DNA from: Bryoerythrophyllum caledonicum
Taxonomy: Eukaryota > Streptophyta > Bryopsida > Pottiales > Pottiaceae
Reading direction: 5' to 3'
Length of the DNA: 64,000 bases
Assembly (NCBI GenBank): GCA_963971425.1
Contig: OZ020517.1
Location: 15,037,297 to 15,101,296 of the forward strand
The notes beneath the pieces were generated by a model. That model worked only from the letters and a program-made list of their open reading frames with translations, was not told where the DNA came from and made no database searches. Positions 6,533 through 62,238 of this stretch are shown piece by piece (positions within the stretch are counted from its first letter, which is position 1; the number at the start of each line of letters is the position of its first letter). The position numbers were made by a program, and so were the translations under genes.

Positions 6533-6534
6533 CT

Positions 6535-9326: not shown

Positions 9327-9334
9327 GTCTTGAA
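9327..9334. repeat. Target-site duplication, right copy (hAT element 1)
   Basis: GTCTTGAA, identical to 4146-4153. Confidence 0.85.
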
Positions 9335-11365: not shown

Positions 11366-11374
11366 ATAAAAATG
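11366..11374. repeat. MULE target-site duplication, left copy
   Basis: ATAAAAATG, repeated exactly at 21624-21632. Nine bases is the standard Mutator duplication length. Confidence 0.95.
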
Positions 11375-11687: not shown

Positions 11688-11819
11688 CAATCCGAGGAGC
11701 GGATATGATGTAGATGATTTATGTTGGACTCGGCTTGCAACGTCTCTCCAGCCCGTGTTCATTGCGGCGCCATTTGTTGTGCTCGCGGGAGAGTAGAGTG
11801 TCACCGATAGGCAGCGGGA

Positions 11820-26360: not shown

Positions 26361-26458
26361 AAAACGAAAAAATAAGGGGTGGTCACAAGAGAACAGTGTC
26401 TGCACAAGTTGCAACTGCACTGTACACCAAGCACCTTCCCGAACAGTCATGGGCACGC

Positions 26459-29914: not shown

Positions 29915-29992
29915 GTGTTCGGTCTGCATATTTGCACACGAGCGACATTTACCGTGCTATTTTTCTGGACATTGAGCAAGGAGCTGAGAATC

Positions 29993-32900
29993 ATGGTGCG
30001 GTGGCTTGCCTACATGTTGTGGTTAGTCAGCTTTTCTATTTGGAAGGCGTTCTTTGTTCGTCTGTGTTGGAAGCCCTCCTCTGTTGATGTTGCGGATGAT
30101 GGTGTTCGGGTGCAGGTGTTGTCGGGCAGTGACAGCGGGTTGCGATCAGACGAGGAGGACGCTGATACATCTTCGGAACATCGAAGTAAACTTTCAGATT
30201 ATCTGGCGGATGTGCTCTCACAGGTTTCATTAAATGAGAAGGTTACCATTCACTTCTACGTTGACCAATATGGATACGGGCCATTGACATGCGATGAGGA
30301 CGCACAGGTGAAGGAGATCTTGGGAGCCATTGCTACTTCCACCGTTGTCAAAGAGTTGGATGTATCCAGCATTTGGCCAATGACATGGGAGGGAGTGTCA
30401 GAATCCTTGCTCTCCAACCAAAGTGTGAAGAAATTATTAATTTCGGGCTATCCGAGCAGGTTTATACATGAATTGATGTCGAGAGTGTTGTTGGAGAATA
30501 CATGTCTGGAGGATGTTGATCTTAGTAGTATGACAATGGACAGCAACTGTGCGGTGTTGGTGAGTAGTGCGTTGCGCCACAATCGAACTCTAAAACGCCT
30601 TCATTTAGGTTGGTGTGAGATGGATGAAGAAGGATGGAAAGTGTTTCTTGATCCACTCTCAGGGGGCGATGATCATAATTCCGTCCTTGAGCACTTGAGA
30701 TTCTCTGTTAGATCAAGAGCAAAGTCCCATTGTGATGTGCACATTGGCAATATGGTTTGTAGAAACTCCTCCCTCCTTTCTTTGGCCATTCAAGTTATTG
30801 ACTCGGTTGTTGGCACAAGTGTGGTTTCAAGTATTGGAGAAGCCCTTCACTTCAACAAGCAACTCTCAAGTTTGGATATTTCTAACGTGAGTGGAACAAA
30901 GGTTGTATGGAAGGGATTATTTACATCACTCACACCAAATGCAGAAGGACAACAAGCGAATACTAGTCTACATGAACTAATTATGTTTGAGGGTTCTGCT
31001 TGGGAGGATGTTTGGAAATTGGAACATGATTCCTTGTGTGACATGCTACGAGGCAATACATCCTTGATTAAATTCTCGTGGTGGTCAGATCATAACACTG
31101 AATGTGTCCATGTGATTCAACTCTTCGAATCCTTGAAAAGCAATAAGTGTTTGGAGATATTGGACCTATCCGATTGTAGCGGAGTAAAGGGTCGCAGAGT
31201 GTTGGGGGCAATCATGGATCTCCTAGATGAAAATCACTACTTGAAGGAAATCATATTGCATGGTACACCTTTCGAGGAGGATGGAAGCGTTGAAGTGGTG
31301 ACGGTAGCACTAGACAAGAAGGCAAAGGATCGGTTATGGGAAGTGGTGCAAGGCATGGCAACAACAACACCCACTTCTGGAAGAGTTTTCTTGTGTGGCG
31401 AGCCATATGCAGGTGAGCTTGTTTGTTTTACATTGGTTTGGTTTGGAACCCTATCTATATCAATGGTAATCATGTATGTATTATGATTGATCAACCTTTA
31501 AAGGAATGTACTAATTTCTAAAGGTTATGAAAATTTGAGTTATAATCATGGTAGAACCCTGAATGATTCATGTGAAAAAATAGAGGATGCATCTTATCCA
31601 CCTTATTTTCATATTATAGCTATGAATTTCAGATAGTTTTGATGTGTGGTTGGTTATACAAAAGTGGATAATATATTTCACATGATCAAACTTTATACGA
31701 ACTTGGATCCAACTTGGATTGGTAGTCTCTACAATGTAAGTAGAAAGTAATCATTCATTTATGTGTTTGATCATAATGACACTTATCCTCATATCAGAGC
31801 AGTACTTAAGCATGAGATTGTTCACATTACCTTGAACATACTTTCATCAAAAGTCATGTACACAATTAAATATATATCGAGCATTACAATTTCTCCATTC
31901 TACCTACTTCCTATGATTATATATGGCCTTACCTAATTATTGGTAACAACTTGTGACGTGTACCATTGACTTAATAATCATTCATGACTTTCATGTTTTA
32001 AGATCATTCTACACTAATCTAAGCGTTTTATTCAAGAGTGAAGTGTAATTGGTTATTATCAATGATTGTACCATACCATCTTACAGGTAAAACTACTCTT
32101 CGCAAGACAATAATGAAAAATTATTCAAGTGCGATTGGAAAACAATCAATCAAAACGAGAGTGAAAGCAATTTTCAGGGGAAGGAAAAGAGATGGAAGAG
32201 TTCCAAGTGCCAAAGATATTGTTGAAGAACGAACTCGAGGAATTGAGGTACATAACCTTCAATGTGAGGATATCATTATGACTATCTGGGACATGGCTGG
32301 AGAAGAAGAATACCATGCTTTCCATGATTTGGTGGTTCCAAATCTCCCGATGAGTGGAAGTTGTTGTTCATTTGTACTTGTATGCAATCTTGCATACTGT
32401 CATGATAACCCACATGAATTGAAGGGAATTGAAGAGATCATTATAGAGCTCCAATATTGGTTGAAGTTCATTGTCTCTAATTCAAGAATTTCAAACCTAT
32501 ATCAACCTCATGTGATGATTGTGTTCACTCACATCGATGAGTGCTCATGGGATACAAGTCTTTTGCTCCAAGCAACCAAGGATTTGAAGGTAAAATTTGA
32601 AGAGTTCCTTGAGTTTGAAGATGATGATTTTGTGATTAATGCCAAGACTTGCAAAGATTCAGTCGATGGTGTGTTCAAGGCCATGGTAAACCACTTGAAA
32701 GGCTTATTGGCAAGGGTGCCAAAAACTATTGAAGCTTGTGACAAGCTTCAACAGGTAATAGCAAGGAGGATCAAAGACAATCCACAAGAGTTGGTGTTGG
32801 AATGGGATAGATTTTCTAGGATATGTGATGAAGTGCGAGAGTTACAAATGGTGGATGCATCAGATCCGAAGTTGATAAAGAGGAGGAAAGAATTTGTTGC

Positions 32901-35126
32901 TTCGTCCTTGCATGATAGAGGGCATGTGATATACTTTGAAGACCCAAATATGGTGATTGTGAATCCCCACTTGTTTTGTCATGGCATCATGGGTGAGCTC
33001 ATGAATGGGGATAGAATGTCAAAATATAAATCAGATGTACGACATGGCATTACAAAGGCAAATCTCCAAATGGCATTGTCAAGCACACCTACAGCGAAAC
33101 AACACAAGGTGGCTTTGGAGGATGTATTGCAAGTGATGCAAAAGATGGAACTTTGCTATGAGCAAGAGGATGGAACTATTATGATTCCATCAATATTGTC
33201 AGATCGATATGGGAAATCGACTTGGCCAATGAAGTCCAATGCATCCATTTCTTATAGGTATATTGGAAGGAGATTGACAATTGATGATAAAGAGAAGACA
33301 CTTCTTAGTCTTGGGTTTTTTCCTCGATTACAAGTAAGCCATCATGTCATTCCACTTTTAATTTGTACTTGTGTGATAATAAATTGTAGTTGGCGATTGA
33401 TTATTCATGTTTGAATAGATCCTGCTGTATAGAAATCATGAAAAACTTACTAGAGATCAATGCTTATTATATAACTAAGGTGCTCATTTTCTTAATTGTA
33501 AGTTGGTGGTTTGAGGATTGTGCAATTTAGGATGGCTTGGTGTCTGAAAATTCATTATTGATGTTGAGGCATTTAGAACTCAATAGTTGTTTGATGTAAC
33601 AACAATGTATTCATAAACATATCTACTTGTCTTTCATGAAAAGATATTGTTGTTGGTAGAGTAAATTGCCACATGATTTCACAATCTCATCATTTGTACT
33701 ATATTTCCATTCTTGAAATCTTAATACTCAATAGCTCATTTATACAAATAACAATTGCTTTGTGCAGGTTTCTTTACAAAAGGAATTTGGAAGAGCCTGT
33801 GAAATCATGAAAAACATGATCAAGTTCATTCATAATGGGATGGAGACCATCATTGAATACAGTGGTACTCCTGCTTTTGATATTGATATTTTGATGCGGT
33901 CAAATGGGAACGAAGACATGATTAAGTTGGATTCTCTTCAAAGGCATCTCATCAAGCGCATTGTCACACTTTGTGCACATCCCACATTGGGTTGTCCAGG
34001 AGTGAAACTCGTGGACCACATCATGCGGCCTGCGTGTGCTGAAGAACTTGTTGCATACAAATATAGGTCCGAGCATCAAGTTGTTATGGTAGAGAAGTTG
34101 AAACAAATGGTATTGGACCGTGCTGACCTTGCTTTGAAGTATGATTGGCGTAGTGAAGGGCCAGTACTAAAGATGGGTTGTGATGATGCAAAGACATTGT
34201 TGGGGGATCAAATGTCTAATGATGTGTTGAATCAACTTGTGGTTGATTTGAAGATGATTGAATGTCAAATTTTGGGGGATAAGGGATCATTGGATGTCAT
34301 TGGCAATGCAAGGTCGATGGGCATCATAAAGGCTTCAAAACCATCACATGTGACCATGGATGACTTATGGATCAAGATGGACAAGCTTGAAGACACAATG
34401 AATCAAAGATTTGATAGGCTTGAAGAGAAAATGCAGGAGATCAAGTTGCTTCAAGAGAAATTGTTGCCTAAAGTGTGCAAAAGATTGGAGGAGTTGGTGA
34501 CATTCACGGTGGAGTTTCAACAACACAAATATCCACGCCTTCCTTATTTTTTAGATTGTCTACATGGTGGTCTAACACACATGGTGCCCGGGATGCGAAA
34601 GTATGTTCTCCACTTGTTATGTGAACACAAAGATGGATTTCACATTGTTGAAGATCAAGAAGGTTGTGAGTTGTCAATTGGCACGGAGTCAATACAAGCA
34701 TTTCAAAATGTTGTAAGGTGGGGATTAAGAGTTTTCTCACTCTTGTTGAAAGTGGGGGCACACGTTGGAGCGGGCATGGGTTCAATGGTTCCAGACCTTG
34801 GAAAGGCTTTCCTACTTGTGTTAGATACACCAGGGATTGGACTTGATAAAGTGAACTTGGGTACGACACAAACTTTGATGAATGAAGCAAAGCCACACAT
34901 TTCACATACCAAAGAGAAGGTGGCTGAGCAATGGTTGATTGATGTGTTGAAAGAAAAGTGCAAAGGTAGCAATGATATCAAAAGAATGTTCAAGCTTCAA
35001 AAGGTGATGTACACAAAGAAAGAAGATGATGAATCTGGAGGTGTGGCATGGATTTGTAACAAGCACTATGAGGAATGTCGAAGGAGTAGTACCTTGGAAT
35101 TGTTGCTTTGTGACATGGATGGTTGA
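29993..35126 (+). CDS. TORNADO1-like LRR-Roc-COR (ROCO) protein, 3 exons
   Basis: Exons 29993-31412, 32087-33333 and 33768-35126 phase perfectly into 1341 residues, close to the size of plant TORNADO1 (TRN1). Residues about 75-450 are leucine-rich repeats of the ribonuclease-inhibitor style (KRLHLGWCEMDEEG, LEILDLSDCSG). The Roc GTPase follows: GEPYAGKT P-loop (about 469-476), WDMAGEEEY (G3, about 541-549), FTHID (G4, about 620-624). The COR region and a winged-helix-like stretch (ALEDVLQVMQKMEL) come next, then a coiled coil in exon 3 (KMDKLEDTMNQRFDRLEEKM) and a C-terminus ending near GGVAWICNKHYEEC. Intron 1 falls inside the P-loop. The N-terminus is strongly hydrophobic (LAYMLWLVSFSIWKAFFV), a possible membrane anchor. 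An in-frame ATG at 29915 could add 26 residues. TRN1 acts in plant cell patterning and auxin-linked growth; the same role here is inferred. Confidence 0.9.
31413..32086 (+). other. ROCO intron 1
   Basis: GT-AG intron of 674 bases splitting the glycine codon of the P-loop before Lys-Thr. AT-rich, no gene or repeat recognised. Confidence 0.85.
33334..33767 (+). other. ROCO intron 2
   Basis: GT-AG intron of 434 bases, phase 0, between LQ and VSLQ. Nothing else recognised in it. Confidence 0.85.
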
Positions 35127-37054: not shown

Positions 37055-38820
37055 ACATATACCAATCCAAGGTAAGTTTCTTACGGCTGCTAGCGATGGT
37101 CCAACAAATGGCACGTAACATATTTGTTATGGCCCCGCCTTCAGGCCTCAAGATATCAAACATTTTGAAAGGGCACATCTTTAGAGGTTGGCCAAACACA
37201 TTTTGAACTCTTCCATCTTTTGTAGCGTTTGGATCAATTTAACCCCTTAAGGACAAAGTGTCCATTCAAGGGACAAAATATTTCAATTGGACTACAATTG
37301 TCTTACAACTAATATATTGACTCGTTGTCTCCAACAGGAGGCGACAACATATAAGATGAATTTTTGATGTGAATCGTCTGCACTAATTTACATCAAGCTC
37401 ATACATATCAAGTTTTGATTTGGTACTTGTTTCCAAGAAAGTGTGTGCAAGTCAAAGATTGCACGTTAATATTTAATCCGTGTAGAAACTTGAAGTATTG
37501 TATACACGGTGTTGTCAAGAACCACAATTGACTTGAAGTACTATAGCTTCAACTAAATATGATGTTCAGCATACAAAGTGCAATTCACTTTTTAAATCAA
37601 ACTTGCCCCAATTGTCTAGAACAACAACAACGATTCCCCTATCAACAACGAACACTTGATTGTCTCGTTTACAAAAACCTAGCTCACAGCAATAAACTCA
37701 CATCATCACACACTAAAATAACTCCAAGTCTCCTCGGATTTATTTTCACAAACCTCATCTCAAGAAAGAAAAAATTGTACTACACACTCTCTCCTCCTCA
37801 GATTTCCTTTTAAACTTCGACTCTCACTTTCACACCAAATCCTAAAACTATGAAAGTTTCTGTCAACAATGAATCTGGCTTCTCCTCCAGCACCATCACC
37901 GCCTTCCTTGCCTTGCCACCATCTCCTACGCACGCCCCATCGTCATCCCACCATTATCATCTGCAAATCACCAACACATGTACACAACTTTGAATCCTTT
38001 ATTAAAAATTTGACCTATTCTAAATTTAAGGTGCAATCAATACTACTTACACTTTGATGAACCGTGGTGCATAAGTTTATGTCCCAAAAGCATCTTTGTG
38101 TTCTTGTATGCTCCTTCATGCCTCCAAAATCCACACTTTATAACATACCAACGATGAGCACGCTTCAAGCAAACCATTAAAGATGCCTAAAGACCTAATA
38201 AAACCTGAGTCACGTCTCCAAATTCATAGACCTTGTTGTCTTGTATTGCTCCCTTTCATGCAAGTCCCAAAAATGCTTCTTGAGCATCTCGAGTCCCACT
38301 TGATCTTCCTTAGAAAATTTGAAGCAACGAAAGAGTGCGCGAAGAAACACACATCCTTATGCGGGAATAATCTTTCACACCGATTGTGAGGAGTCATGGC
38401 TTCCCTTTGCCGTCTTGATCTACCGCAGATTGCCTTCCTTGCTCCCAGCTAGCTCCGTCGTCACTGCTCCATGGCTCCCGCCATAGCCGCGGCCATAGCC
38501 GCAGTTGCTTTGCTCCAACACCTTCAAGTTGCCTCTTTCTACTCCTTGTTCTCCTAATCTCCCTCCTCTTAGCGTTGTAGTGAGCTTCGCCGCTCCCCAC
38601 ATCCCACTTCTATCATCTAAGTTCAGTTTGCTCTCACCCACACTCCCAAAAGTAAAGTGTAGATGATGTGGAGGTTGCTTTTGTGTAAGCTGCCCTTTGC
38701 TTCTTCCTTCCTTGCGACATATTTCATCCACTACGGATGAAAGCTGCCCATTTCCTAAGTTTTTTGCTTTTGGGCAGCGAGGTGCAGTCATTCTACAGTG
38801 AAATTAAATGCAAGTGTGGC
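37055..38820. other. Intergenic, repeat-rich
   Basis: No supported gene. TTAACCCCTTAAGGAC at about 37239 looks like another isolated TTAA-type end. Short open frames near 37869-38057 and 38420-38791 lack recognisable domains. The last bases are the left flank of hAT element 2. Confidence 0.35.
38813..38820. repeat. Probable target-site duplication, left (hAT element 2)
   Basis: AGTGTGGC before the left end; ACTGTGGC follows the right end at 50806-50813, seven of eight bases equal. Confidence 0.65.
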
Positions 38821-38994
38821 CAGGGTTGTCATAACGGACGGGTTGAGGTGATCGGGCGGGACAACGGGACAGGCGGTCTGGACCCGACAAGCGGACGGTT
38901 CGGACGGATTGCCTGAAGTGCGCCCAATAATTTTTTGGAGGTAAGAAATTTTTACTGTGATGGACACATTACATTCAGACGTGTCACGCCACGA

Positions 38995-39125
38995 TGGCGC
39001 TAGGGCGGGGACATCTCCCCTGGGGGCGAGGACGTCTCCCTGGGGGCGGGGTGGTCTTCGCCTCGGGGTGGGGACGCCTCTATGAGAGGCAGGGACGTCC
39101 CCGCCCCTAATGGAGGCGTTGCCGC
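38995..39125. repeat. G-rich GACGTC array D
   Basis: GGGGGCGAGGACGTC-type units between the left terminus and the transposase tail. Confidence 0.65.
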
Positions 39126-39348
39126 CCTTGCATCATTCACCTAGGGGACCTTAATGTCTGAAATTAAGAGGCTGTCCATTTCATTAAATCATTTTACGAT
39201 ATAACAACAATGCCATGATTTCATACTTCCATACCAAGTAATATCGGCACTTGTTATCTAAGAAACTTTTTAATCTCCTAGCTTCTTCAATGAATTATCA
39301 CAACTCTCTTGATTTCGCATACATATACGTAGCTACTTTTCTTGTCCC

Positions 39349-42300
39349 TTAATTATTCAAACGACCCAATCTGCGTACTCCTTCAGTGGACGGGCCACCC
39401 ATAACCGCATCTCGAAGGACGATATCATCATGATCTGGTGCCTCATTGCAATCCCGACCATTGTCATCATTAGCACCTTCATTGCTCTCATCTTCGTATT
39501 CTCCATTGCTACCATTCGTAGTCCAAAAGCTCCCTACTTCAGAGTTGTCGTTGCGAAACTCTACGATTGTTTCACCATCGCTATGCGAGCATCTGAATCT
39601 CTTTTGTCGATGTACATGAAGATCATCGCCGTTGGAATTTATGGTTGGGCCGCTGGTAGGACGAACTGCTCGACTCGGAACAACAAATGCCGGAGTTGAT
39701 GAAGAGCATCCTGGAACATACGTGTCGAAAAACGGTTGTACAACCACGTTCGGATCTCGTGCCCCTATTCCAACGAGGGGACGTCTACAAGGCCTTGAGG
39801 ATGATGCTTCGCCGTTGTTTCTTCCTCCACGGCCTCTAGACCCTCCACGGGCATTAGTCCTTCCACTGCCTTGTTGATATTGACCCATTGGATGAATTGG
39901 CTCCGCTCTAGCGACCAAAGGGGGTCTGCTATTTCTGGTAGTAGTAGTGGAAGTGTTTAGACCCGTCCCCTCAACGCCTACACTTTGTTGGGAAGGTCCA
40001 TACATGGCATTCGCCGTTCTAGGAAAAGACGAATTCCGAGAAGGCGGCATTGGTGTATTCTGGTCATTAATAACAGTAGGCCACACCACAACCGGAGATG
40101 GTTGTGGGTCAAGGTCCTCTATGAATGCAAAAGCATCAGAGGGATCTATATATTCCGGGTCAAAACGCCTTCGCTCATTAACAACCCTTTCATTTCTTCG
40201 AGCTGTCCCTACAATTCTTATGTTTTCAACATTTGCATCAGAGTCTCGTTGAACAACTCCAGTGCTACGAAATGATGCACCCATTTGAATAGGGCTCCTC
40301 TGGCCATACCGGTTCTCAACCGCTCCTTGGTTGTTTTGAGTTGCAATAATTACTGCGTTCTCTCCGGCTCCGTTGTTGTCGGCATCTCTATTTTCACCTC
40401 CTTAATCTGATGGAAATTGTCATCATCGCAAACGTTCCCAACATTGTCCCCCCCCCGTTTCAGGCTCTTCAAGGTTAGTCACATTTGGGATGTCACTCTC
40501 TGAGGAAGTAGACAAATGATGTATTCATGAATGCCTTCATTTTGAGGAAGATGAGGCGAAGGACTACGACGAGGACTTCGATTCCAAGGTCCCCAACGAC
40601 CTTGAGCCAATTCTTCTTGTACGTCGTCATTATCTCCGTATTAATTTCTCGTTTCCTCAAGGTGATCAGGGCCTTCCGCCTAAATATTAGGGTTTCCCCG
40701 GTACTCTAGCGGAGAGCGGGGAGCTTTCATATTGTGCTCCTCCTCTTCTTCAGCTATCAACACATCAAATTCACGATTATGTTCATCCACCAGGACCCGC
40801 CCCAGGGCATCTGGGTCGGAATCCTCCGAGTGAATATTCGCATCGTACCATCAAACGGGATCGGCCCCTGGTCTTTGTTGAAGGCATCGACTATTGGTAT
40901 AAATATACACCAATGACGCAGCCTTTTCCGGCGCTAATCGATTTCGGCTCTTGTGGTGGACAAAAGAATACATACTCCAGTTTTGTTTGCAAGAGCTAGC
41001 TGAACACGTAAGGGCTAGAATACGAACGGCTATTTTAGACAATGCTTTGTCTGCGATCTTGGCCCACCATTGATGGAATTCAAGCTTTGTCTGGCTGATG
41101 TTAGATGCCTCGGTAGGGCCATATGGTCATGTGCCCTCCTCGTACTATGTTAACTCAAATTGGACGTCGTCATAAGAGATGTCCAATACCTCCATCATTT
41201 TGCGAACAACCTGATTCAATGCTCTTTGTGCGATTCCGTCAGCTGTAAGCGCCACATTATCCTTAAGGTACGGATTCAAAAGAACTACGGTGTAGTGAGC
41301 ATTGCTAAACACCATTTGCCACCGGGCATCAAAAGATTGCTCAAGAGTGGATGCTATGTCAGCTCGTAGAGTAAATGGTGACTCTCTCAAAGAGTACACA
41401 TGTTGTCGCAAATCATGCATTACGAGCCACGCACGACCCATGGCTGGTTCTCGGCCATCAAACACACGCAATGCCTTCAAAACATCCCCAGTCATGTGCA
41501 CATAATTCTGACATCGTTGCCAAAAGGCCACATCTTCGATGGTTTGCATCACATCACGCGAAGCGGTTGCTGCTTGCTCTCCATTCTATCTATTCCGTAG
41601 GTTGCAAAGTAGTTTACAACACGAGGGTGGTCTTTCAACTGCTCCAACAGTCCTTTGAGTCTCACCAATCGATCCAACATAAGGAAATTACAAGCAAAGC
41701 GGGTTTCACTCGGCACTACAATATGCAGGTTTGGACTCAACTCACGAAGTGTCCCCATTGTCGAATGATGGTTTCTAATATATTGGCACAATTTCTTTGC
41801 CCTGTCTATTAAATCTTTAAATTCTTGGACCTTCGCCCAATCTTCCAACATGAGAACCAATGCATGTGCCATGCACCCTGCTTGTGAATGTGCGGGTATG
41901 TGAAAATCATATCATCCATCGCTCCAAGCATGTTGGCAGCATTGTCTGTACGAATATGTGTCACATTCTTGGAACCCACCTTCTCAATGTAAACTTTCAC
42001 TTGGTCCGCTATGTACCGCATGGACTTCTTTTGACCATTGGTGTCTATGCTCCCCAAGAATACGTCACCAGTGGGGCACGACATCATTAAATTCATGAGG
42101 GGCCTCTGGTTGACATCATCCCAACCATCCGTGCATATCGACACCCCATAATTTTTTATTGCAAAACCAACTTTGGCTTCAATCTCTTTCTCAATTTGCA
42201 ACCTCTTAGGTTCAATCAATTTAGTCCTCAACTGGTGATATGAAAGAGGAGTGTACTCAAATTTTGCCACGGATGTTGCCCTCACCGCATCAATGAACGC

Positions 42301-42870
42301 CTGATTTTGCACCTTATTAAAAGGCACATTCGCCTAATAGAAAAAGGTCGTCCATTTCTCATCAAGTTCCTTCCTCTTTACAATGTTAAAAGTATCAAGC
42401 ATTCGTTGTTGATGTAGTTGCCCAGATCTGGCGGAATTTAAGGAGGCAAGACCACCCGACATATGTGAAGGGCGTTTCCTTCAGAGGAATTAGGCACTCC
42501 TTCCCAAGGCCCACTTGTTATCCCACCCTCCACATTATTTTGAGCGTCGGATTGGCTTGAAGTGTCAACAATTGGTGCCCTCGATGGACCACTCGGACCT
42601 GAATCTCCGCCATACATGTCCCCGCCCGTCATTCTTTGTAGAACAATGTTTCCACAGTTGGCAAATCAATGTCGCACATGGGGAGGTAGGCTACGACAAA
42701 TTCACCTCTCTGACTTGGCGCCATATCCAAAGTGAGCGAACGCACGCTCACGTTTGTAGCTAACAGTAAAGTTGCAGAAAACACAACTCGCTTTGCCCCC
42801 GTTGTCACAAAAATTGTACCAAGGTTCCCATTCCTTTGTTTGCTTCCTTTGACTTCCCATTGCATTTACG
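39349..42870 (-). pseudogene. hAT transposase remnant (BED finger, DUF659, dimerisation domain)
   Basis: Read leftward. A BED-type zinc finger lies at about 42735-42850 in a shifted frame (CVFCNFTVSYKRERAFAHF). The DUF659/RNase-H-like part is at 41809-42327 (VSICTDGWDDVNQRPLMN, HIRTDNAANMLGAM), continuing at 41549-41872 (PSETRFACNFLML) and 41145-41552. After a stop the hAT C-terminal dimerisation region follows at 40851-41042 (TCSASSCKQNWSMYSF, KSRNRLAPEKAA). An open, disordered tail with an RG-rich patch is at 39349-40284. Frameshifts and stops break the gene in at least four places, so it cannot make an intact transposase. Gene order within it matches other plant hAT transposases of this type. 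Confidence 0.82.
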
Positions 42871-43149
42871 GCTTATGCCAAATATCCCCGGCTTCTCCCG
42901 TCTAAGCCAAAATACGGGGCTAGATATAGTATAGAATCGGGTGAAAAAATTAGTTCTGATAGAGCTGGTGCAATGCTTGAACCAATTTTTACATCACCTT
43001 AGCCGCACACCAGTGTGGCCAGCCACCCAAGTAGACTCACAAGGAGCTCAAACCGAACTGAGGTCCAAGGGATAGAGGCCAAGGTGACGAGTGTAATGAC
43101 AAACGGCCCTCCCTGCTCCTTTTATACACAAACGAAGGACGTGTGGGAC

Positions 43150-43260
43150 CTGTTGCGCCAAGGGCGGGGACGTCCCCGCCCTTGCCCGGGTAGGGGCGAG
43201 GACGTCTCCGCCCCTATCCCACCAGGGCAGGGGCGGAGACGTCCCCCCAACCCAGGAGAA
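43150..43260. repeat. G/C array E
   Basis: GGGGCGGGGACGTCCCCGCC and related units. The linker after it (about 43312-43375) is repeated after array F (about 44930-44985), showing that an array-plus-linker unit was duplicated. Confidence 0.65.
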
Positions 43261-43968
43261 GGAGGCCTTTGGGGCATTTTGGGTGCCTAAGCACTTCTCT
43301 CCATGGAGCGGGTAGAGGTTTTAATATAGGGTGCCTTATTTTTGGTTCCGACAAGATTGCAACACACTTAAAAGAACAAGCAGATTATGTCTAGGAAGGA
43401 GGCTAAATGGAAAGTACGACTTTTGTCCTGTGACAGCATGCTCTCCAATTAGGAACACCTTTATTAGCTCCCTAATAGTTTTGGGGCGGACATAAGAGAC
43501 TAGAAATGAATGCACCACTAGACATAGGAAATTGAAAAAATATTGAAAAGATTAAAGAATTTAAAATAAGAGAATTTTCAAGTTTCGTAAAAATTTAATA
43601 AATCAAGTGTCCAATAGCAAGGGAGCTATGCAAGTCCCCATACAAAAGGGGTAGTATAATCTTCTAGTTGAATGTAATGTGCAAGTTCTCTAATTAGAAA
43701 CTTTAAACACGAGTGCCCCACAAAAGATTAGGAATGCACCACATACCATTAAAGAAAATAATAAATCAAGTAATGAATAGCAAGGGAGCTATGCAAGTCC
43801 CCATACATAAGGGGTAGTATAAGCTTCTTGTAGAATGTAATGTAAAAGTTCTCTAAATAAAACGTACCATTACAAACAAAAAGGATATTTTAAAATCATA
43901 TCATATTTAGAGCAAAAGTATTGTTCCCAAAAAAAATTGCTACGTCAATAACCTTTAAATACTCCTAG
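43261..43968. repeat. AT-rich linker with a 164-base direct duplication
   Basis: The phrase AGCAAGGGAGCTATGCAAGT followed by CCCCATACA occurs near 43615 and again near 43780, each continuing into similar sequence for about 100 bases. No ORF. Confidence 0.65.
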
Positions 43969-44619
43969 TCAGTGGTAACGTTGGGCTCGTTTGGTCTTCC
44001 TCAGCCTACCACGTGCTTGTGCCTTTTCGCTTGCGACTTGGACGTGGGTTCCGTCGAAGTCCGAATCTGAACTCGACGTGCCGGTATCGTAGCTGGGTGT
44101 GTTGTCCATCACAGTCATGAATTTGCCCAATCCACCTTCCGGATACTTGCGCCATCCCATTGGAATTATTTCATATTCTCGGGAAGGAATTTTGATCTTC
44201 CCCGGCATCGACTTCAAAGTGGACCAATCCACTCTCTTGTTCAACTTCACCTCCGCATGAACACCCCACGCAATGAAGAGATTTACTTCGTTGCGTTTGA
44301 CGAATGGGACGTCGTACAACACCAGGTATACTTCAATGCACCGATTTTTAAATGCCTTGTCAACGCAGTGTTTGAGGTTTGCCTTGTGGAAGCGTCGGTG
44401 ATAGTTGTGTCGCTCCTCTAGGAAAGCCTTGTCCATGTAGCACCACTCGATGAAGTTTGCGCAATCATCAAAATTCCATGGCTCCTATACATCTTCCCAA
44501 CCTTGAAAGGCCAACTTCGCAGGATTACGAAGAACGTGCAACTGCTTCCGATGGGCGTTCCTCGCTCGTGCACGGGTCTTGTCTCGCTCCTCTTTCGCCA
44601 ATTGTCCGGGTGAAGCCAT
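43969..44619 (-). pseudogene. hAT cargo gene X, copy 1 (truncated)
   Basis: Starts MASPGQLAKEERDK at 44619, then LHVLRNPAKLAFQGWEDV, an in-frame stop near 44482, and an open frame from DKAFLEERHNYH through RVDWSTLKSM and PMGWRKYPEGGLGKFM to an Asp/Ser-rich stretch and a basic end. It aligns along its length with the start of copy 2 (47120-48059), but ends before the coiled coil and RING of that copy. Family not recognised; no known domain in this portion. Confidence 0.6.
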
Positions 44620-44759
44620 GGTTTGCACCCAATCCAAATCTTTGGTGTGATTGGATGAATGAAGGCTTCGCACGACGCCATCAACCAGCTCAATGAAGAG
44701 ATGGATGGAGAGGAGTATGCAAGGCGGGGACAAATGGGGCCAAAAATCATTAAAATAGT

Positions 44760-44875
44760 CACTCGGAGACGTCTCCGCTCTGCCCGGGCAGGGGCGGGGA
44801 CGTTTGTTTGAAAAAATTTAAAAATTGGAGGGGGACGTTTCCACCTAACTCCAGAAGGAGGCGTTTGAGGCGCAT
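44760..44875. repeat. G/C array F
   Basis: GAGACGTC and GGGGCGGGGACGTTT-type units between the two cargo gene X copies. Confidence 0.6.
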
Positions 44876-44929
44876 TGTAGCTTGGCCGGGGCACTCCTCA
44901 TCTCCATTTGGCGGGTGCACAATTAAATA

Positions 44930-45775
44930 TGGGGTGTCTTATTTTTGGTACCGACAAGATCGCGTTGCACTTAAACAAGGTACCAAAAACAAAAACGTCT
45001 TTCCACATAAAACTTAGAGATTTTAACTTTTTATACATTTGATTTTTTCCACAACAATATATGGTGTAGACCTTCATATTGACCATTTGGATCATCAATC
45101 TAAAACATATCAAGTATCTAAAAACTAAAACGTTAATTGGCCATTTTTGAACCTCCGCTACTAGCATAGTTGACTTGAATAAGCTACACCCTTTTTCTAG
45201 CTCTAACAATTGGTGTATAAGGAACTAACATCATCCTAAACACAATAGTAATGGATTTTGACCTTATGTAGTGCAAAAATTTGATATGAAGAAAAGTCAA
45301 AGTCTGTTGATCCACCAAACGCAGGGAAGAAAATGAACCATTTGCTTGACTTCAAACACTATAATCTTTCAATCCGTGCGGTCAAAATTTGTGAAATTTT
45401 GTGGGCACATTAACAAAGAAGTATTTATTGAGATCCTATGGTTAAAAAGGTTTTGTCTCCCTTCTTAGGCATTATACTATAGCCGGGCAGTTTTGAAGTG
45501 TTTTTGGTGCAAAAATGCCTTGGTCCTTTAGGGGTTAAAATGTTTGGAGGTTTAAAAATTGGTCCATACCATTTTGTTTTATACAAACGCACAAATCCTT
45601 ACAAGGCTTAAGTACATCCATAATCACACCTCTATTATCAAGTAAAGTAGACACTACTATTCATATTTTTTTACTATGCATAATGTAGTACGAAAATTGG
45701 AAAATACATTAAACGCTAAAAGATAGAGCATTGTAAGAAAAATATCTTTTGCAACTGCAAAAACAAAAAATACAC
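44930..45775. mobile_element. AT-rich linker with a truncated TTAA-family member
   Basis: About 45000-45538 matches the right part of the element at 27802-28709, ending GGTCCTTTAGGGGTTAA at 45538 with the left end missing. 45539-45775 is AT-rich with no gene. Confidence 0.55.
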
Positions 45776-48059
45776 CTAGTCAATATTCATGCGGCTATTA
45801 GTAGTGCCACTCGCCCCTGCCTCGTTGCCATGTGCCCCTACATGCATCGGGAGGTCTTCATCCGAGCCCAACTGAAGTCTACGAGACGCCGTCCGTGTTC
45901 TCCTTGCTAGTCCATCTTCATCCAACACGGCCCTTAGGATTTGGGATTGCATGAGGTGGTCGAGCGCTTGCCGTGTCCCTGGATTGTGCACATCAAGCAA
46001 GAAGTCGATTCCGTCATTTTGGAAAATTTCTTTCCACTCTGATTCCGATAATTGCCTTAGTTCTTGCGGGTCGGGTTGGTCAACGTCGTGAGAAATGCGA
46101 TCCCCATTGTCGTCTGTGATGCGAACTCCGTCAACGGCCCACAACCATTGCCGTGGATGAGGTCCGAATCAAAATTGCTCCCCGTTCTCATCCCAATGCC
46201 CATTAAAGCATTGGTAGAAGAAATTTCGTTTTCCTTGACCGTATTTGTCCTTTAACATGATCAAATTCTTGCACACTCGGACAATTTGCTTCGGGTCCCT
46301 TTCCCAACCCCACTTGTTTGAGAGATGCATCTTATCCAACAAGTGCATCCTCAGTTTCTAGCTCCACACCAATCATTTTCCCACATTTGTGATTGATCAA
46401 GAAGTTCATCACATTGAACTCCCAATACGGGGGCATGTATGGAACTAATCCAAAAAGTTTGTACAATTGCTCATGAAAAGGGGCCTTGCACAATGAGCAC
46501 CGCCGGCGTACAATCATCAAACTAATCAAGCAAAATAGATGGTACAAGTGCTCGCAAGTGCCTAGATGCATTCCACCTTCTGGACCAAATGGGTTTAGAC
46601 AAATTGAGCAAGTCGTACCGTTGGATACAAAGCTCGAAGGTTGTGGCCACAATAACATGGGGTTGCCTCGATGGTCGAGGGTGGATGAAACCTCTTTTTT
46701 GAAATCAAAATTGTAACGGGACCAATCGATGGTTGTTTGCCCACCGGTGGTTTTCAACATTGCCATTTCATCCATCTTGAAAAGATCATCTACGAGGGCC
46801 CACGACATCAAACCAAACACCCTCTCTTGGTTGTTTTCGGTATAGTTGTTGTCGATTTTCTGGAATTCTGCCACCAATTGTCGGGACCAATCGACCGTGA
46901 AGACGGAGGCCAACTTCCATTGATAGAAATGTTCTACCAACACATCCAAGCAACTTTGTAGTCTTGAATTCTCTTTAAGGCGGAAGCGAGCTCTTTACCG
47001 CCGTCACCCGCCACACCCTCTTCTTTGTTGACCATAGTTTTGTCTGCGTTGGTAGGGGCCTCGTCAAACGACAATGAATCGTCTTCGATTGACACGTGTA
47101 CAAGCCCTTCCTCCTCACGTCATGGATTCCGATCTTCTGTGGTCATTGTATTAGCTTGTAGGGCAAGTCGGAGCTCCTCCATATCACGTTGTTGCTGGTC
47201 AATAACAATGTTTTTGTCATTGACTTCAACTCTCAACTTGCGAACCTCATCGTGCAATGACAATAGTTTTGTCCTCTTCCCTTCCAATTGGTTTAGCAAG
47301 GTTTGGATACTGCTGGCCAAAATAGCATCAATAGGAGCTTCGAACGTTCGTTCAACAACCGTGTGGGATTGCAAATAAGCTACAACTTCATAAATGGTAT
47401 CGTTAACGACTACGATAATCGTATGTTCCGCCCTCCTTCGTTTGGTGCGTGCTTGTGTCCTTCGGCTCGTTGTGATTGGAACGTGGGATCCGTCAGAGTC
47501 TGTATCCGTGTTTGAGGAATCGGTCTCGTACGTGTCGACTGGTTCAGTCTTCGCCATCAATTTGCTCAATCCGCCTTCTAAATACTTCCATGTCCCCATT
47601 GGGATCAATCCATTCGCCGAAGAAGGAACTTTTATGCTATCTCCCATGGCTTTCAAGGTGGACCAATCCACCCTCTTGGCCAACTTTACCTTTGCATGGA
47701 CACCTCGCGCAAGGAAGGGATTTACTTCATTGCGTTTGACATAAGGGATGTCGTACAACACTTGGTATACTTTAATGCACCGATTTTTAAACGCCTCATC
47801 GGTGCACTTCAATAAATTTGCCTTGTGAAAGCGTCAATGATAATTGTGTCGCTCTTCTGGAAAAGCCTTGTCGATATGGCACCACTCGATAAAGTTTGCG
47901 CAATCCTCGAAACTCCATGGGTCCGGAACTTCTTCCTAACCTTTAAAAGCCTATTTTACTGGATTTCGAAGCACATGCAACCTCTTCCGCTATTTGTTTC
48001 CTGATCGTAGTCGACTCTTGTCTCGTTCTTCTTTACTCATTTTTGCGGGCGTGGCCATG
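45776..48059 (-). pseudogene. hAT cargo gene X, copy 2, with coiled coil and RING finger
   Basis: Reads leftward from MATPAKMSKEERDK at 48059. After several stops an open part runs 47812-47120: NRCIKVYQVLYDIPYVKRNE, RVDWSTLKAM, PMGTWKYLEGGLSKLM, an Asp/Ser/Thr-rich linker, then a coiled coil (EVRKLRVEVNDKNIVIDQQQ). The 46949-46332 frame has a RING-type finger, CSICLNPF, then CEHLYHLFC and CSLC (C3H2C3 spacing), typical of E3 ubiquitin ligases. An acidic end piece lies at 46144-45776. The open parts are separated by stops and a probable frameshift near 46985. That the three parts form one protein is inferred from order and strand. Confidence 0.6.
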
Positions 48060-48224
48060 GGTGACAAAAATCTGAATAACGAATGTCATGCGAATGGAGG
48101 AAGTCCTCGCATGACGCCCACAACCAACTCAATGAAGAGGTGGATGAAGAGGGAGTATGTGAAGCGGGGACAATTAGGGGCGGGATCGATATCATATAGC
48201 CGATAGACGAAGCATTGGTCTAGG

Positions 48225-48375
48225 GTCCACGGGCTGGGGCGGGGACGTCCGCACCCCCACCCGTTTAGAGGCGGAGACGTCTCCGCCTCTGTCCAAGTAG
48301 GGCGGGGACGTGCCCGCCCTACCAGGGCAAGGACGGAGACGTCCCCGTCTCTACTCGGGTGGGGCGGAGACGTCT
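48225..48375. repeat. G/C GACGTC array G
   Basis: At least six GGGGCGGGGACGTC-type units in both orientations, between cargo gene X copy 2 and kinase copy 2, whose starts face apart. Confidence 0.7.
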
Positions 48376-48439
48376 TTGCTAAAACCCGGGAAACCACATA
48401 AATAGCAGACTTTTGTCCTTATTCTCTGCCAAGTCCACT

Positions 48440-48590
48440 CCCTAGGCCTCACGTGTCAGTTTGTTTTGCGGCCTGAAAGTGAGTTCGATGGGTGGTCGGG
48501 CTTGGCCTATTTATTGCATCCAGACTCTTTGCGGTTTTTTTAAAACCATAATTTTGGAATTTCGACCACGGTAGAGAGTTGACTATCACG
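48440..48590 (+). promoter_or_regulatory. Possible promoter of kinase copy 2
   Basis: CACGTGTC (G-box/ACGT core) near 48450 and a TATA-like CTATTTATTGC near 48508, ahead of the ATG at 48591. Suggestive only. Confidence 0.3.
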
Positions 48591-50212
48591 TATGGCGAGA
48601 GAAGGAAGTAGGTTGATGGAGAAGCGCCCCCAATTTATGGATTTGGATGATGTTGGTGAAACGGTGCTTTCGTCCACCAACACGGAGTTGACGTCGGGAT
48701 CATTGAATCCGTCATCATCGAGCAGGAAGAGGTAGAAGAAGACACCAAATCCGGACATGCCTTTGCATGAGTACATGGTTGAATGTAGAGGGATTGTTGT
48801 CGAGTTTTACAACCGCCGAACGAGACAGGCATTGATGAAGAGCTATTTGGCGCACAACAAAGATAGATACCATAAGTTGACCGTTGATATGCAACACAAA
48901 ATAATGTCAAACCTTGATAAATCTGAGATTTAATGATTTCTCAGATTATTGGTTGCATTCGGAGTGATTGGACACACAAGTGACCACACTAACCACCAAT
49001 ATTGTTGCGAACTAGTGTTACGTCACGGGGAAGAAGGAGGATGGAAGAAACTGGGACATTGAGGACAACACACTTGTAGCAAAGATGAAGATGATCTAGA
49101 GCTTCGTTCAACAGTACTCTTCTTCCCGTAAGAAGAAACTCGCTTCTTGGAAAGCGACAATCGAGGACCAAATTTTGGCTCACTACGTCAGTGGAACATT
49201 CAAATGGCTTGAAAGTTGCGCTAAAGTGATTCCAATGCCAGGACAAAAAGCAGTGGGTGGCTATGGGACTGTACGGAAGGTGATGCTAACAAAATTGGAG
49301 AACATTCCAAGTTGGATTTACTTCGCCGGAAAGACTCTGATCAACACCAACAAGAGGGATAAGCGCCGAGACATCATCAACGAGGCTGGAGGGTGTCCGG
49401 TGGTGCATCTAGGGATCATTAGACTTGCGTACATCCACCCGAAAACTATCGAAGGATACACGCTCTAGTGGAATGGGGGATCTCTGGCTTCTTTTTGGTC
49501 CAAGTATGACTCAAAAGTGGACGAATCATTGCCGTTTGAACAAATTCAGACGCATCCAAATACCGGGTTGTCGATCGAAGAGCTTCAGTGGGTAAAAACT
49601 TACCTCAACAATCGACTGAACCTCGCGCTATCGTTGCTTTTCATTGTGGGGAAATGCCACGACGTGAATTATATACACAATGACCTCTCTCCATCGAATG
49701 TTTTGCTCCACTTTGATGAGTGGAAACCCAATACGGTGTACATAGGAATTTGCGATTGGGGGCTTTCTAGTCGGGTTGTGGAGAATGAGCCATCAAGGTA
49801 TGGTTATCAATTCATGGAGCAGGTTTGAGAGGAAAGAGAGCGGGGACGGTTTGTAGCACCTGAACTGTTCTATGTTTTTGGGGAGCAAGGCTCCACCAAC
49901 TCGCTTGAAGTCCTGCAACGGTCACACCTCTACTCCAAGGCAGTAGATGCATTTGCGGTGGGTTGGATTTTTTCTCGCATTTGGCAAGAAAAATGGGACA
50001 CTCAGTATTTCACCATCAAAAACACGGAGCAATATGTACACCTGAAGCTGAAATTGGAAGGCCTACGGAAAGAAGATGTGAGTGAATGGTCTTCTGTGCC
50101 AGATGTTATAGACACATTAATGAAACCCCCCCACGGCTGGACTATGCCTCTATGTTGCTACCGACAATATTTTTTGTTAATTATTTGCATTAGTTTTGCA
50201 TGTGGTGTTTAA
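48591..50212 (+). pseudogene. hAT-carried atypical protein kinase, copy 2 (decayed)
   Basis: Starts MAREGSRLMEKRPQFMDL, with a basic Ser-rich linker and a helical part (EFYNRRTRQALMKSYL) equivalent to the N-terminal part of copy 1. The kinase domain follows: GGYGTVRKV glycine loop, FAGKT, then IHNDLSPSNVLLHF (catalytic loop with HND), ICDWGLSSR (DWG in place of DFG) and RFVAPELFYVFG. The C-lobe runs to about 50190 with a frame change at a C run. Stops interrupt it near 48735, 48930, 49467 (Trp position) and 49826 (Arg position). Motif order matches copy 1 throughout, and the catalytic Asp is kept here, so this copy better represents the ancestor. Pathway and substrate unknown. Confidence 0.78.
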
Positions 50213-50544
50213 ATAGACAGTACGGCATCTTTGTAGAAGAGTATATGTACTTGGCAATTGCCATACGTCTCAATTAATCAATTTTGTATACATCCAATTT
50301 TTAATTTTTCAGCCTGGGATTTGCATTTCTTCAATCACCAATAATTGGGTATAAATATTTTCTTCACATATAATATGTCAATGCGAAGCTATCAACCTAG
50401 TGCACAGGTAAACCGCTCTAATTTAAAGTTATAAAATTCTTGCAAGACTCTATTGAAAGTTAAAATAGTACACCCTCCAAATTCCACAGTTTTCACTACC
50501 AATATACAGTAACTTTAAACACTATAATCTATTCCGTCAACGGT
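50213..50544. repeat. AT-rich repeat fragment
   Basis: About 50365-50540 matches about 24650-24840 inside the TTAA-flanked element there (shared GAAGCTATCAACCTAGTGCA-like phrase and ACTTTAAACACTATAATCTA). No gene. Confidence 0.6.
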
Positions 50545-50640
50545 TGGACGTCCCCGCCCCTGTGCTAGTAGAAGCGGAGACATCCCGGCACTGCCTCCCT
50601 CTTCCCTTTAGTCCCCACCTCTACTTAAACACGTCCATGT
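50545..50640. repeat. G/C array H (short)
   Basis: GGACGTCCCCGCCCC and diverged units between kinase copy 2 and the right terminus of hAT element 2. Confidence 0.5.
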
Positions 50641-50805
50641 CATGCGTGGCAGCGATATGGTGTCAACATGGCCGCCACGTCGCAGGTTTTTTACCTTGAT
50701 AGTAAGTCAACTCTAGGTTGACTGTATCAGACGGGCAAGACCTCTACCGGACGGGCAAATTGGACGGACGGGCGAACCGGACGTCCGTCCAGTATGACAA
50801 CCCTG

Positions 50806-51058
50806 ACTGTGGCTAACGTGGACATCCCGTGTTTTCTATGACGTTACAGTCTCTCGTGGTCACGTTTCTTTTGACGTCACCAAAAATGTGCATGTCTACG
50901 GTGACATCAACACGTTTTGTCTTTAATAGGAACACGTTTGATGCAACGTCAAACTAAATTTGAGATATTAAAGCAATTTTTTTACTAACGCTTGACATCA
51001 CAGAAAACACAACACGTAACAGCCTTGATGACACCAAAAACATGGTTTTCTTATAATG
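50806..51058. mobile_element. CACTA-like right end, copy 1
   Basis: Ends CATGGTTTTCTTATAATG at 51058, the reverse of CATTATAAGAAAACC, close to the plant CACTA-element terminus CACTACAAGAAA. The subterminal part holds repeated ACGTCA/TGACGT and CACGT motifs, typical of CACTA subterminal arrays. hAT element 2 lies directly at its left, so the hAT appears to have inserted into this element. Confidence 0.5.
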
Positions 51059-51599
51059 GGAGGGATGGAATCCCGGGGTCAACCGGGAGTTGCTGGATAA
51101 GCACCTATCAAGCTCCTACGACATATCGGAGTGCTACCGGAGTGATCAATTCATGAACAATCAGTTGAGGAGGGTGGTTGAATTTTTAAACCCAATCTTC
51201 TATCCCAACCAACGTGAAAGAATCACAACGCCGCTAGCCACAACCTAGATACAGGCATTCTTTGAAGATTCCTTTCCGGATTAGGGATTTTTGTTGGAAG
51301 AAGCATTTATGCCACAGCTCCGGGCAATTTAACAAGGTGGATGTTCTAAGACTTTCTTGACTCCATATCTCATGCATCTATATGAGCATTGTGGTTGTTT
51401 GAAATCGGAAGAAAAGAGGGTTTAGAGGCAAGGGATGGTTCCCCAAGACCATTCTCCCCGGGCCTTTTCCCAACTTACTGAAAGAAGTTTGGCGCTACCG
51501 GCAAACCAACAGGAGGCGTCATCATCCCGGTCACTCTTGAACGATAGTAGGTCATTTCGGTCTCATCGAGAAAACCCACCACCACCTCGGCCATCAAGA
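51059..51599. other. Degraded retroelement-like sequence
   Basis: Conceptual translation shows stretches such as ELLDKHLSSSYDISECYRSD and RRVVEFLNPIFYPNQRER broken by stops. It precedes the gag-like ORFs on the same strand. Confidence 0.35.
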
Positions 51600-51607
51600 A
51601 TCTCACA

Positions 51608-52357
51608 TTGGTAGAGAAAATAGTCAAGTTCTCCAAGGATGTGGCCCAAGCTGTCCAGCAAATGGAGATCGAGCTTCTAGAGGCAACGAGTCTTCAGAGG
51701 GCTCTCCGGAAGGTATTAGAAGTAGTTGACACCGGTGACATAATAACTGCAGCCCGGGAGATCCGAGAACAGTTTGCCAAAGTGAAAAAGGATCTTCGGA
51801 CATCCTAGAAGCAGCACCTTGACACAAAGGTCAAGGCACATGAGACTATGGTGGCACTAACCAAGCTACTTACTGAACAAACAAGTGCCACCATACCAAT
51901 ACAAGACCGGAGCCCAATGCGGAAGAAGAAAAGGTTTATCTACACCAATTATCTTTCTTCAGAAGATGATGATCCACCCACTAAATATCTAATGAATAGA
52001 GCGGATTCTTCATCTTCCAAAGAGTGGGGTGTAAAAATTTATAAGAGACACCGGGGTCTCCCGGTCAATCCTCTCGGGAAGGAACCGGTTGATTTTTCCT
52101 TCTCACGAATGGATTCTTTGGTTGAGTCTTCGGTAGCTATGCTTGTTGATTTGGTGGAGACTTTTTATGTATCGGTGGATACTTCCAAAATACCGGTAGA
52201 TACTTCCAATCTACTGGTAGACCGCCCGGTTGAGATTTCCAACCTTCCGGTGGATACTCTTGACCATATACTCGTGGATACTCCCAACCTTCCAATCAAT
52301 CCACCCATGGATTTACCAAAAGATAAGTCCACTCTTCCGGATAAGTCTTCTGAATGA
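51608..52357 (+). pseudogene. Gag-like retroelement ORF remnant
   Basis: Two open parts in one frame, 51608-51808 (helical, KFSKDVAQAVQQMEIELLEA) and 51848-52357, separated by a stop. The second has a basic patch (RKKKRF) and a degenerate repeat of VDTSNLPVD type. Such charged, repetitive proteins just before a putative 3' LTR suggest a retroelement gag or accessory ORF, but I recognise no diagnostic motif and see no protease, reverse transcriptase or integrase. Confidence 0.35.
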
Positions 52358-58559: not shown

Positions 58560-59379
58560 GACATTAGGCCTTAAAGGATTATCCCCTAAATTTCTGTAAC
58601 AATTTCACACCAGAAACGCTTCAAAATTGTTGATTCTAGTGCAATGAGTAAAGAAGGAAACAAAAACTTTCATTTTTAGTATTGACCGTAGGATCTCAAC
58701 TAAGACTTATCAAATAATATGCTCACAAAATTCCATACAATTTGACCGCCCGAATTGAAAGATTACAGTGTTTGAAGTAGAGAAGACAATTCATATTCTT
58801 CCATGTGTTGAGTGGATCAGCAGACTTTGACTTCACTTGGTGTCATAGTATTGCACTACACAAGGTCTAAATACAATACCATCATGTTAAGCATGGTAGT
58901 AGTTCCTTGTACACCAATTTTTAGAAGTAGAAAAGACGTGTAGCATATTCAAAAAAATTGTGCAAGGAGTGGAGGTTCAGATTTTATTTGCAAGGAGTGG
59001 AGGTTCAAAAATTGCCAATTCACATTATATATATTTTTGAACTAAATATGTTATAGAATGAGAACCCAAATGTTCAATTAGAAGGTTTAAGCCACATCTA
59101 TAGTAGGAAAAATAAAATGTAAAGAACATTAATATCTCTAGTTCTTATGTAGGAAAGAAGTAGTTTTTGGGTTCCTTGTCCAACAATGTGTGACCATGTT
59201 TGTATTTTTTTTACTTGGATTAGCATGCTATTTTAAACCAAGGACAAGAACTTGTTTTTGACAATATGGAAGGAAATAATATTGTTTGCTAGTATTGAAT
59301 ATCTCACATTCAATAGAATGTTCTAGTAAGAGTTTTTGGAGTTGCCCAATGTGCTCGCTCTCGCAAAGTTTTGCTTTAA
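58560..59379 (-). mobile_element. TTAA-family element, inverted relative to 27802-28709
   Basis: Right border TTTAACCCTTAAATGCCC at 59376. The inside matches 27802-28709 and about 23400-24227 in shared order. The left border near 58577 is mutated (TATCCCCTAAA). Confidence 0.6.
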
Positions 59380-62214: not shown

Positions 62215-62238
62215 TTTCTTCCTCTTTGAAGTCCCTGG

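Follow-up and report, generated by a model that had tools for sequence, protein, structure and literature searches.

The window, that is, the whole 64,000-nucleotide stretch of the moss Bryoerythrophyllum caledonicum analysed here (C4:15037297-15101296 in a 437,360,962-base assembly of 894 contigs), contains two transposable elements, a small one at 4154-9326 and a large one at 38821-50805, each carrying the remains of a protein-kinase gene. A plant genome is indicated by 49 WRKY-domain matches, against none in 14 control genomes; many of them are divided near profile position 20-24, as an intron would do, and their modest number may point to an early land-plant lineage. The large element and its relatives are hAT DNA transposons of the plant: they present short terminal inverted repeats of the CAGGG type, hAT-type transposase domains in copy A (a whole relative located on contig C2), and 8-bp target-site duplications in three elements (8/8 bases identical for copy A and for the small element, 7/8 for the large one). 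The kinase is a standing gene of these transposons, being the last gene before the same end and directed outward in nearly all copies examined closely, and we consider it very probably a selected accessory gene of the hAT clan to which both elements belong. The kinase copies of both window elements are broken; the features of the two elements are listed below, the small one representing what we call the second lineage.

4146-4153, target-site duplication GTCTTGAA of the small element; identical partner at 9327-9334 (8/8)
4154-9326, minus strand, small element, second lineage, kinase-side end at the left
4239-4255, subterminal hairpin GTCAAC/GTTGAC, position counted from the printed end
4824-5934, minus strand, kinase remains of the second lineage, with frameshifts and stops; motifs HNY and DWE
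7192-8702, satellite-like tandem array inside the small element, 18 copies of 83 bp
38813-38820, left target-site duplication AGTGTGGC of the large element; right partner ACTGTGGC at 50806-50813, 7/8 bases equal
38821-50805, plus strand, whole large hAT element, a decayed copy, kinase-side end at the right; delimited by ends and duplications, with blocks aligned to copy A
38821-38834, plus strand, left terminal inverted repeat CAGGGTTGTCATAA, exact match
39355-40245, minus strand, C-terminal exon of the transposase or a separate open reading frame (ORF), from tblastn with copy A proteins
40614-42872 (within 39355-42872), minus strand, hAT transposase remains (N-terminal part, DUF659 and hAT-C region), from tblastn with copy A proteins
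43972-44628, minus strand, ORF-X, duplicating in part the RING protein's N-terminal region, with one stop
45992-48079, minus strand, RING-finger gene remains, stops in 2/4 pieces; an open frame of 777 codons in relatives
48592-50167, plus strand, protein-kinase gene remains, one frameshift and six stops; motifs HND and DWG; directed outward (locus L009, window 47630-51649)
50706-50722, subterminal hairpin GTCAAC/GTTGAC at the kinase-side end
50792-50805, minus strand, right terminal inverted repeat CAGGGTTGTCATAC, 1 mismatch to the left repeat

An earlier, sequence-only reading of this DNA had linked the two elements by their termini, by a hairpin inside them and by the position of the kinase, and each of these observations was reproduced. 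The 14-mer CAGGGTTGTCATAA occurs exactly at 38821 (plus strand) and at 9313-9326 (minus strand) and with 1 mismatch at 50792-50805 (minus strand); the end at 4154 is shorter, CAGGGTTGTTTTGG. In both window elements and in copy A, about 84-102 bases separate the hairpin GTCAAC..GTTGAC from the kinase-side end; a second hairpin of 14 nt, at 4168-4198, is present in the small element only. The kinase is the last module at the same end, transcribed outward, in both cases (5934-4824, minus strand, and 48592-50167, plus strand). As for the motifs HND and DWG, which had been given for both kinases in place of the canonical HRD and DFG, they hold for the large element; the small one reads HNY and DWE.

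Copy A and the genome-wide position of the kinase

Copy A (loci L039 and L040; C2:39894345-39907073; 12,729 bp) has CAGGGTTGTCATA ends and is flanked by a perfect 8-bp duplication, GTTGGAGG. Oriented with the kinase at the right, it comprises a minus-strand transposase broken up into several open stretches, followed by arrays of GC-rich repeats, ORF-X, a RING gene and, as the last gene, an outward-directed kinase of 526 amino acids (10460-12046, plus strand). Pfam detects DUF659 above cut-off (3.1e-36) and Dimer_Tnp_hAT below it (E 0.0011; 19.1 bits, cut-off 21.4) in the transposase, zf-RING_2 just below cut-off in the RING protein (2.2e-5; 25.1 bits, cut-off 27.3) and Pkinase above cut-off in the kinase (7.8e-9; 35.7 bits, cut-off 31.7). 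The RING gene of copy A is interrupted by a stop, and the corresponding frame of 777 codons is open in 9/30 fetched RING loci. The large window element aligns with copy A at 75-89% identity over seven main blocks; its transposase has stops in 4/7 aligned pieces, one of which still matches DUF659 (5.9e-24), and its RING piece matches zf-RING_5 (9.4e-6; 25.9 bits against a cut-off of 27.9).

ORF-X copies the N-terminal part of the RING protein within the same element (5969-6694 and 8743-9849 in copy A element coordinates; 43972-44628 in the window). Its only Pfam match, to MmlI, is weak and doubtful (E 0.0026-0.044).

Whole-genome searches place the kinase at a fixed position. The genome contains the 14-mer CAGGGTTGTCATAA at 410 sites (198 forward, 212 reverse) and a control with reversed letters at 1; the shared ends are therefore not due to chance. 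For the kinase, RING and transposase queries, the best 119 of 2060, 134 of 1901 and 113 of 2265 candidate places were scored, respectively. Among these best places, at least 35 kinases are paired with a transposase on the opposite strand, 6.9-9.9 kb upstream, with no other arrangement within 12 kb, and at least 64 are paired with a RING gene on the opposite strand upstream (exceptions: 0 on the opposite strand downstream, 1 on the same strand). The RING gene is thus also a standing part of the best preserved lineage, so that the term cargo, which the sequence-only reading had applied to the kinase, is too weak.

The 30 best-scoring kinase loci (including the large window element and copy A) and the 30 best-scoring RING loci were then considered individually. 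A terminal repeat with at most 1 mismatch and in the expected orientation lies downstream of 28 of the 30 large-type kinases, its outer edge 550-779 bases past the frame, and the GTCAAC/GTTGAC hairpin is found inside 26 of these 28 right ends. For the pairing of kinases with left ends, 100 of the 410 CAGGGTTGTCATAA positions were used; of the 35 kinases on contig C1 within the span of these ends, 12 are preceded by an exact left end at 10.1-11.4 kb (0 wrong-side cases; random mean 0.36, maximum 2). The same associations could in principle arise from a host kinase family with transposons inserted nearby, or as an artefact of two neighbouring copies. The narrow distance and single orientation of the terminal repeat in 28/30 loci already contradict this explanation, as do the perfect duplication around the whole copy A unit and the lack of any mirrored case in the test of the fourth lineage (see below), and we give it hardly any chance.

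Besides copy A, one other region was read at length, C14:18817-36316 (loci L041 and L042), which keeps only the right 4.5 kb of an element, with the kinase and part of the RING gene, at 95.7% identity to copy A.

Further kinase lineages with ends of their own

A 58-residue piece of the small-element kinase was used as a query, and the best 150 of 1416 candidates were scored. Forty-seven of these are of the small-element type, and two other groups, with 54-58% and 60-65% identity, account together for the remaining 103. In the small-element type (second lineage), an exact left end of matching orientation lies 3.1-9.3 kb upstream of 9 of the 13 kinases within the part of C1 spanned by the ends used (random mean 0.22, with a maximum of 3; 0 mirrored or on the wrong side).

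The 54-58% group corresponds to a third lineage. One kinase of this group and its downstream flank (L073 and L074) were read: the HND and CDWG motifs are followed by a repeat array and then by an end, ..GACAACCCTG, where 36 further copies also terminate, their last positions differing by a few bases. The terminal repeat deduced from this shared stop, CAGGGTTGTCTATCG, has 83 and 81 sites on the two strands as a 15-mer (control, 0). At the hairpin site, this lineage keeps the first arm and much of the surrounding sequence, and the second arm is imperfect. With 100 of the 164 end positions used and 103 of the 150 scored rows entered, 15 of 22 kinases on contigs C1-C4 and C6-C8 have a CAGGGTTGTCTATCG end 1.2-3.1 kb downstream, a number that includes the copy which supplied the end sequence; mirrored or wrong-side ends number 0 and 1 for the two groups in this test. 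For two of the seven misses (C3:2647991 and C7:24097181), the same end is present in the BLAST list.

The 60-65% group forms a putative fourth lineage, whose end was deduced from L076, in which ..CGAACAACCCTA is directly followed by the continuation of another repeat. The exact TAGGG form of this end is rare (21 sites), and CAGGGTTGTTCGGCCG with at most 1 mismatch has 469 sites (control, 2). Using 100 of these positions, we found such an end 1.17-1.34 kb downstream of 13 of the 27 kinases on C1 and C2, again counting the copy that supplied the end (0 mirrored; random mean 0.05, maximum 1). Kinases of the third and fourth lineages thus lie just inside CAGGGTTGT-type ends of their own. Two earlier suggestions were rejected in the process: that both groups of 54-65% identity lie outside such elements, from the 0/23 kinases on C1 with a CAGGGTTGTCATAA end, was abandoned once their own ends were found, and that the 60-65% group does so, from the 0/42 with a third-lineage end, was abandoned with the finding of CAGGGTTGTTCGGCCG. 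In the copies examined, the kinases are not found mostly outside elements, ends being in place for 28/30, 9/13, 15/22 and 13/27 copies. This link, together with the further lineages, supports the proposal of the sequence-only reading that the kinase is a standing gene and not the outcome of two chance captures.

Two large-type kinases, C1:5527906 and C1:60969288, lie 1.39 and 1.28 kb from a CAGGGTTGTTCGGCCG end of the fourth lineage, which hints at right-end exchange or nested insertion. Such cases would be expected if the kinase and the kinase-side terminus formed a right-end module that moves between elements by recombination or nested transposition, the shared position then not reflecting common descent. 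The small element, composed of a kinase and ends and devoid of a transposase, fits this explanation, as does the C14 region, which demonstrates that right-end derivatives exist. Against it, the unit of kinase, transposase and RING gene is regular in the large type, and the kinases of copy A and of the third lineage are only 37% identical (over 317 amino acids), so that any swapping between them must be old. We regard a mobile right-end module as unlikely, and common descent of the arrangement as the better explanation.

Relatedness and constraint of the kinases

In three aligned sequences (two of the large type and one of the third lineage), no variation is seen in GGxG, FAGK, the alpha-C Glu, HND, CDWG and APELF, and WWNGGSLAS is likewise common to all three, apart from a single site masked in the window copy. 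Of the small-element kinase, three pieces find the large type at E values from 1e-6 to 1e-20 in a small database of fetched loci. In phmmer comparisons, the piece covering the HND region scores 44.6 bits against copy A and 64.5 bits against the third lineage, compared with 15.9 bits for the best solved kinase (as the third-lineage sequence used lacked its last part, its low score with the third small-element piece is meaningless). Judged by these similarities, the kinases of these lineages are nearer to one another than to the other kinases compared, in agreement with the relatedness of the two window kinases assumed by the sequence-only reading. They could instead descend from two independent captures of related host kinases that came to lie at the same place by chance, an explanation that gains some support from the two window elements sharing no blastn match longer than 80 bp. 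The common end, the outward direction and the hairpin inside the end all speak against it, as does, for the piece tested, a mutual similarity well above that to any solved kinase, and we consider two separate captures very improbable.

The best solved match of the kinase profile is VRK1 (7.2e-5), followed by CK1 and CK2; the similarity covers about 60 residues around the catalytic loop and does not allow assignment to a family. A DWG motif in place of DFG is also present in CK2. The third-lineage kinase matches Pfam Pkinase (7.1e-10, 39.2 bits). Among the 30 large-type copies, K248 is retained in all, E265, D365 and N370 in 29 each and the Mg-binding Asp in 23. Canonical HRD and DFG are replaced by HND and DWG, and with the active-site residues mostly kept, the protein is better described as a motif variant than as an atypical kinase, the term used previously. 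Its activity as a kinase is predicted from these sequence features. In the other seven copies (L010, L014, L015, L016, L022, L029 and L030), the Mg-binding Asp (codon 389) is changed to Asn by a G to A transition at the same CpG, which may represent mutational decay at a methylated CpG, a hotspot located in the active site.

The possibility that the kinase is of the Crinkler type found no support in the Pfam results. The search for relatives outside this genome gave none among 47 pattern stretches of viral contigs and, among 121 stretches of genome contigs, a single weak match (Oscillatoria, 31% over query residues 343-396), which we attribute to ordinary kinase resemblance.

Selection was estimated on 22 of the 30 kinase loci, of which 10 are intact and 12 contain stops; L009, L010, L014, L015, L016, L022, L023 and L035 were left out as more divergent, shorter or frameshifted. 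The 10 intact copies, whose existence the sequence-only reading had left to be checked, have a pooled ratio of nonsynonymous to synonymous differences (pN/pS) of 0.335 in frame, compared with 0.943 and 1.156 in the two other frames, and a median pairwise ratio of the corresponding substitution rates (dN/dS) of 0.324 (45 pairs). In the 12 copies with stops, pN/pS is 0.467. The nine RING loci with an open 777-codon frame give a weaker signal (0.468, compared with 0.703 and 0.809 off frame). These ratios indicate that the intact large-type kinases are under purifying selection.

Transposons capture genes, and the kinase could accordingly be passive cargo, descended from one old capture of a host kinase and hitchhiking with no benefit to the element. 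Stops or a frameshift in 20 of the 30 fetched copies would be in line with such a history. The in-frame constraint of the intact copies, with a higher ratio in those with stops, would not be expected from it, nor would the retention of most active-site residues and the presence of the kinase at the same place in four lineages, and passive hitchhiking appears to us quite improbable.

Several observations nevertheless weigh against a standing gene kept by selection. Besides the high proportion of broken copies, NWG replaces DWG in 2 of the 10 intact ones, a change expected to kill the enzyme. Selection on a transposon gene also reflects which copies spread, so that a low pN/pS shows use by the element and not by the plant. 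No exact end was found at the expected place for 14/27 kinases of the fourth lineage, 7/22 of the third and 4/13 of the second; the third and fourth lineages are known here from the kinase and right end, and of the two regions read at length, copy A alone is a whole element. No remains of a transposase or RING gene were detected in the small window element by tblastn with copy A proteins. Finally, a comparison of kinase and RING distances in 7 elements was uninformative as to joint descent (Mantel r -0.09, first 2000 permutations), the distances being near-star.

Possible role, precedents and neighbouring features

In the scenario that we favour, the clan would have acquired the kinase a single time, ahead of the separation of at least three, and probably four, of its lineages, and would have retained it because it is useful to the element. 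The transposase would cut and paste the element via its CAGGGTTGT ends, generating the 8-bp target duplication, and the kinase and RING proteins would be accessory proteins that help the element to spread by acting on the transposase or the host cell. Conceivable targets of the kinase include the transposase, host silencing and damage signalling. The likeliest route, to which we give somewhat less than an even chance, would combine phosphorylation with a ubiquitin step to weaken host silencing of the element, by analogy with VANC in role and not in chemistry. More tentatively, and with doubt prevailing, the clan may possess its own signalling module, in which a non-RD kinase and a RING protein jointly disable host control (silencing, or a defence triggered by transposition) and which has been kept for a long time across lineages.

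The element resembles known members of the hAT superfamily (Ac/Ds, Tam3, hobo) in its CAGGG-type repeats, 8-bp duplication and transposase with DUF659 and hAT-C regions, and differs from ordinary ones in its size of about 12.7 kb and in the addition of a kinase, a RING gene and an extra ORF. Ordinary hAT elements are not known to carry more than a transposase. A survey covering 276 plant hAT sequences (PMC6027215) does not use the word kinase in its main text, and neither does a 2026 review on how plant transposons capture genes (PMC13317346). The limited open-licence literature searched yielded no kinase-bearing hAT family from plants, in line with the claim of novelty made by the sequence-only reading; the element belongs to a known superfamily and has a gene content not described in the literature searched.

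The nearest precedent found is fungal. In TET-carrying IS3EU families, an alpha-kinase gene is reported to lie opposite to the transposase (PMC12730594), so that a kinase in a DNA transposon has a parallel: both are DNA transposons with a regular kinase gene opposite to the transposase. IS3EU differs in belonging to another superfamily, in its fungal hosts and in the type of kinase, the one described here being of the Pkinase type (PF00069). The same text likewise interprets fungal transposons with TET/JBP dioxygenases in terms of anti-silencing (PMC12730594). Giant DNA transposons of algae and fungi are described as carrying accessory genes beyond the transposase, in a paper whose main text lacks the word kinase (PMC12477816); they are large and gene-rich like the present element but belong to the KDZ, EnSpm and Sola superfamilies. 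In plants, VANDAL elements of Arabidopsis encode the anti-silencing protein VANC beside the transposase (PMC10398659, PMC5735166, PMC13317346). They resemble the present element as plant DNA transposons with a standing accessory protein, and differ in that they belong to the Mutator-like element (MULE) superfamily and that VANC is described as recognising short sequence motifs; for the present element, an anti-silencing role is proposed by analogy. VANC is neither a kinase nor a RING protein.

The usual view of most DNA transposons is that of a transposase flanked by two ends; in this clan, a kinase (accompanied by a RING gene in the best preserved lineage) is under selection as well. The family's kinase copies number well above one hundred, and the maintenance of its intact members by selection suggests that the element brings its own signalling enzyme to bear within the plant cell. 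The effect of transposons on host signalling or silencing can thereby be approached directly. Many kinase-like genes of this genome belong to transposons, and annotation could mistake them for kinases of the plant. If the reading as a signalling module were correct, the genome would hold a large selected population of kinases belonging to the transposon and not to the plant.

Elsewhere in the window, a young Mutator-like element occupies 11375-21623, with 313-bp terminal inverted repeats that are 99.7% identical and a perfect 9-bp duplication, ATAAAAATG, on both sides. From their motifs, we take the ORF at 12366-14927 (plus strand) to be MULE-type transposase-like and that at 15337-16362 (minus strand) to resemble an Ulp1-type protease. 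ORFs at 29897-35126 (plus strand) presumably represent a leucine-rich repeat and Roc-COR GTPase (ROCO-type) gene, and long ORFs at 59915-62238 (minus strand) presumably a piggyBac transposase, again by their motifs. Dispersed repeats about 70-90% identical link 9619-9985 with 26005-26374, and 23438-24174 with 58583-59347, 45000-45447 and 28086-28607.

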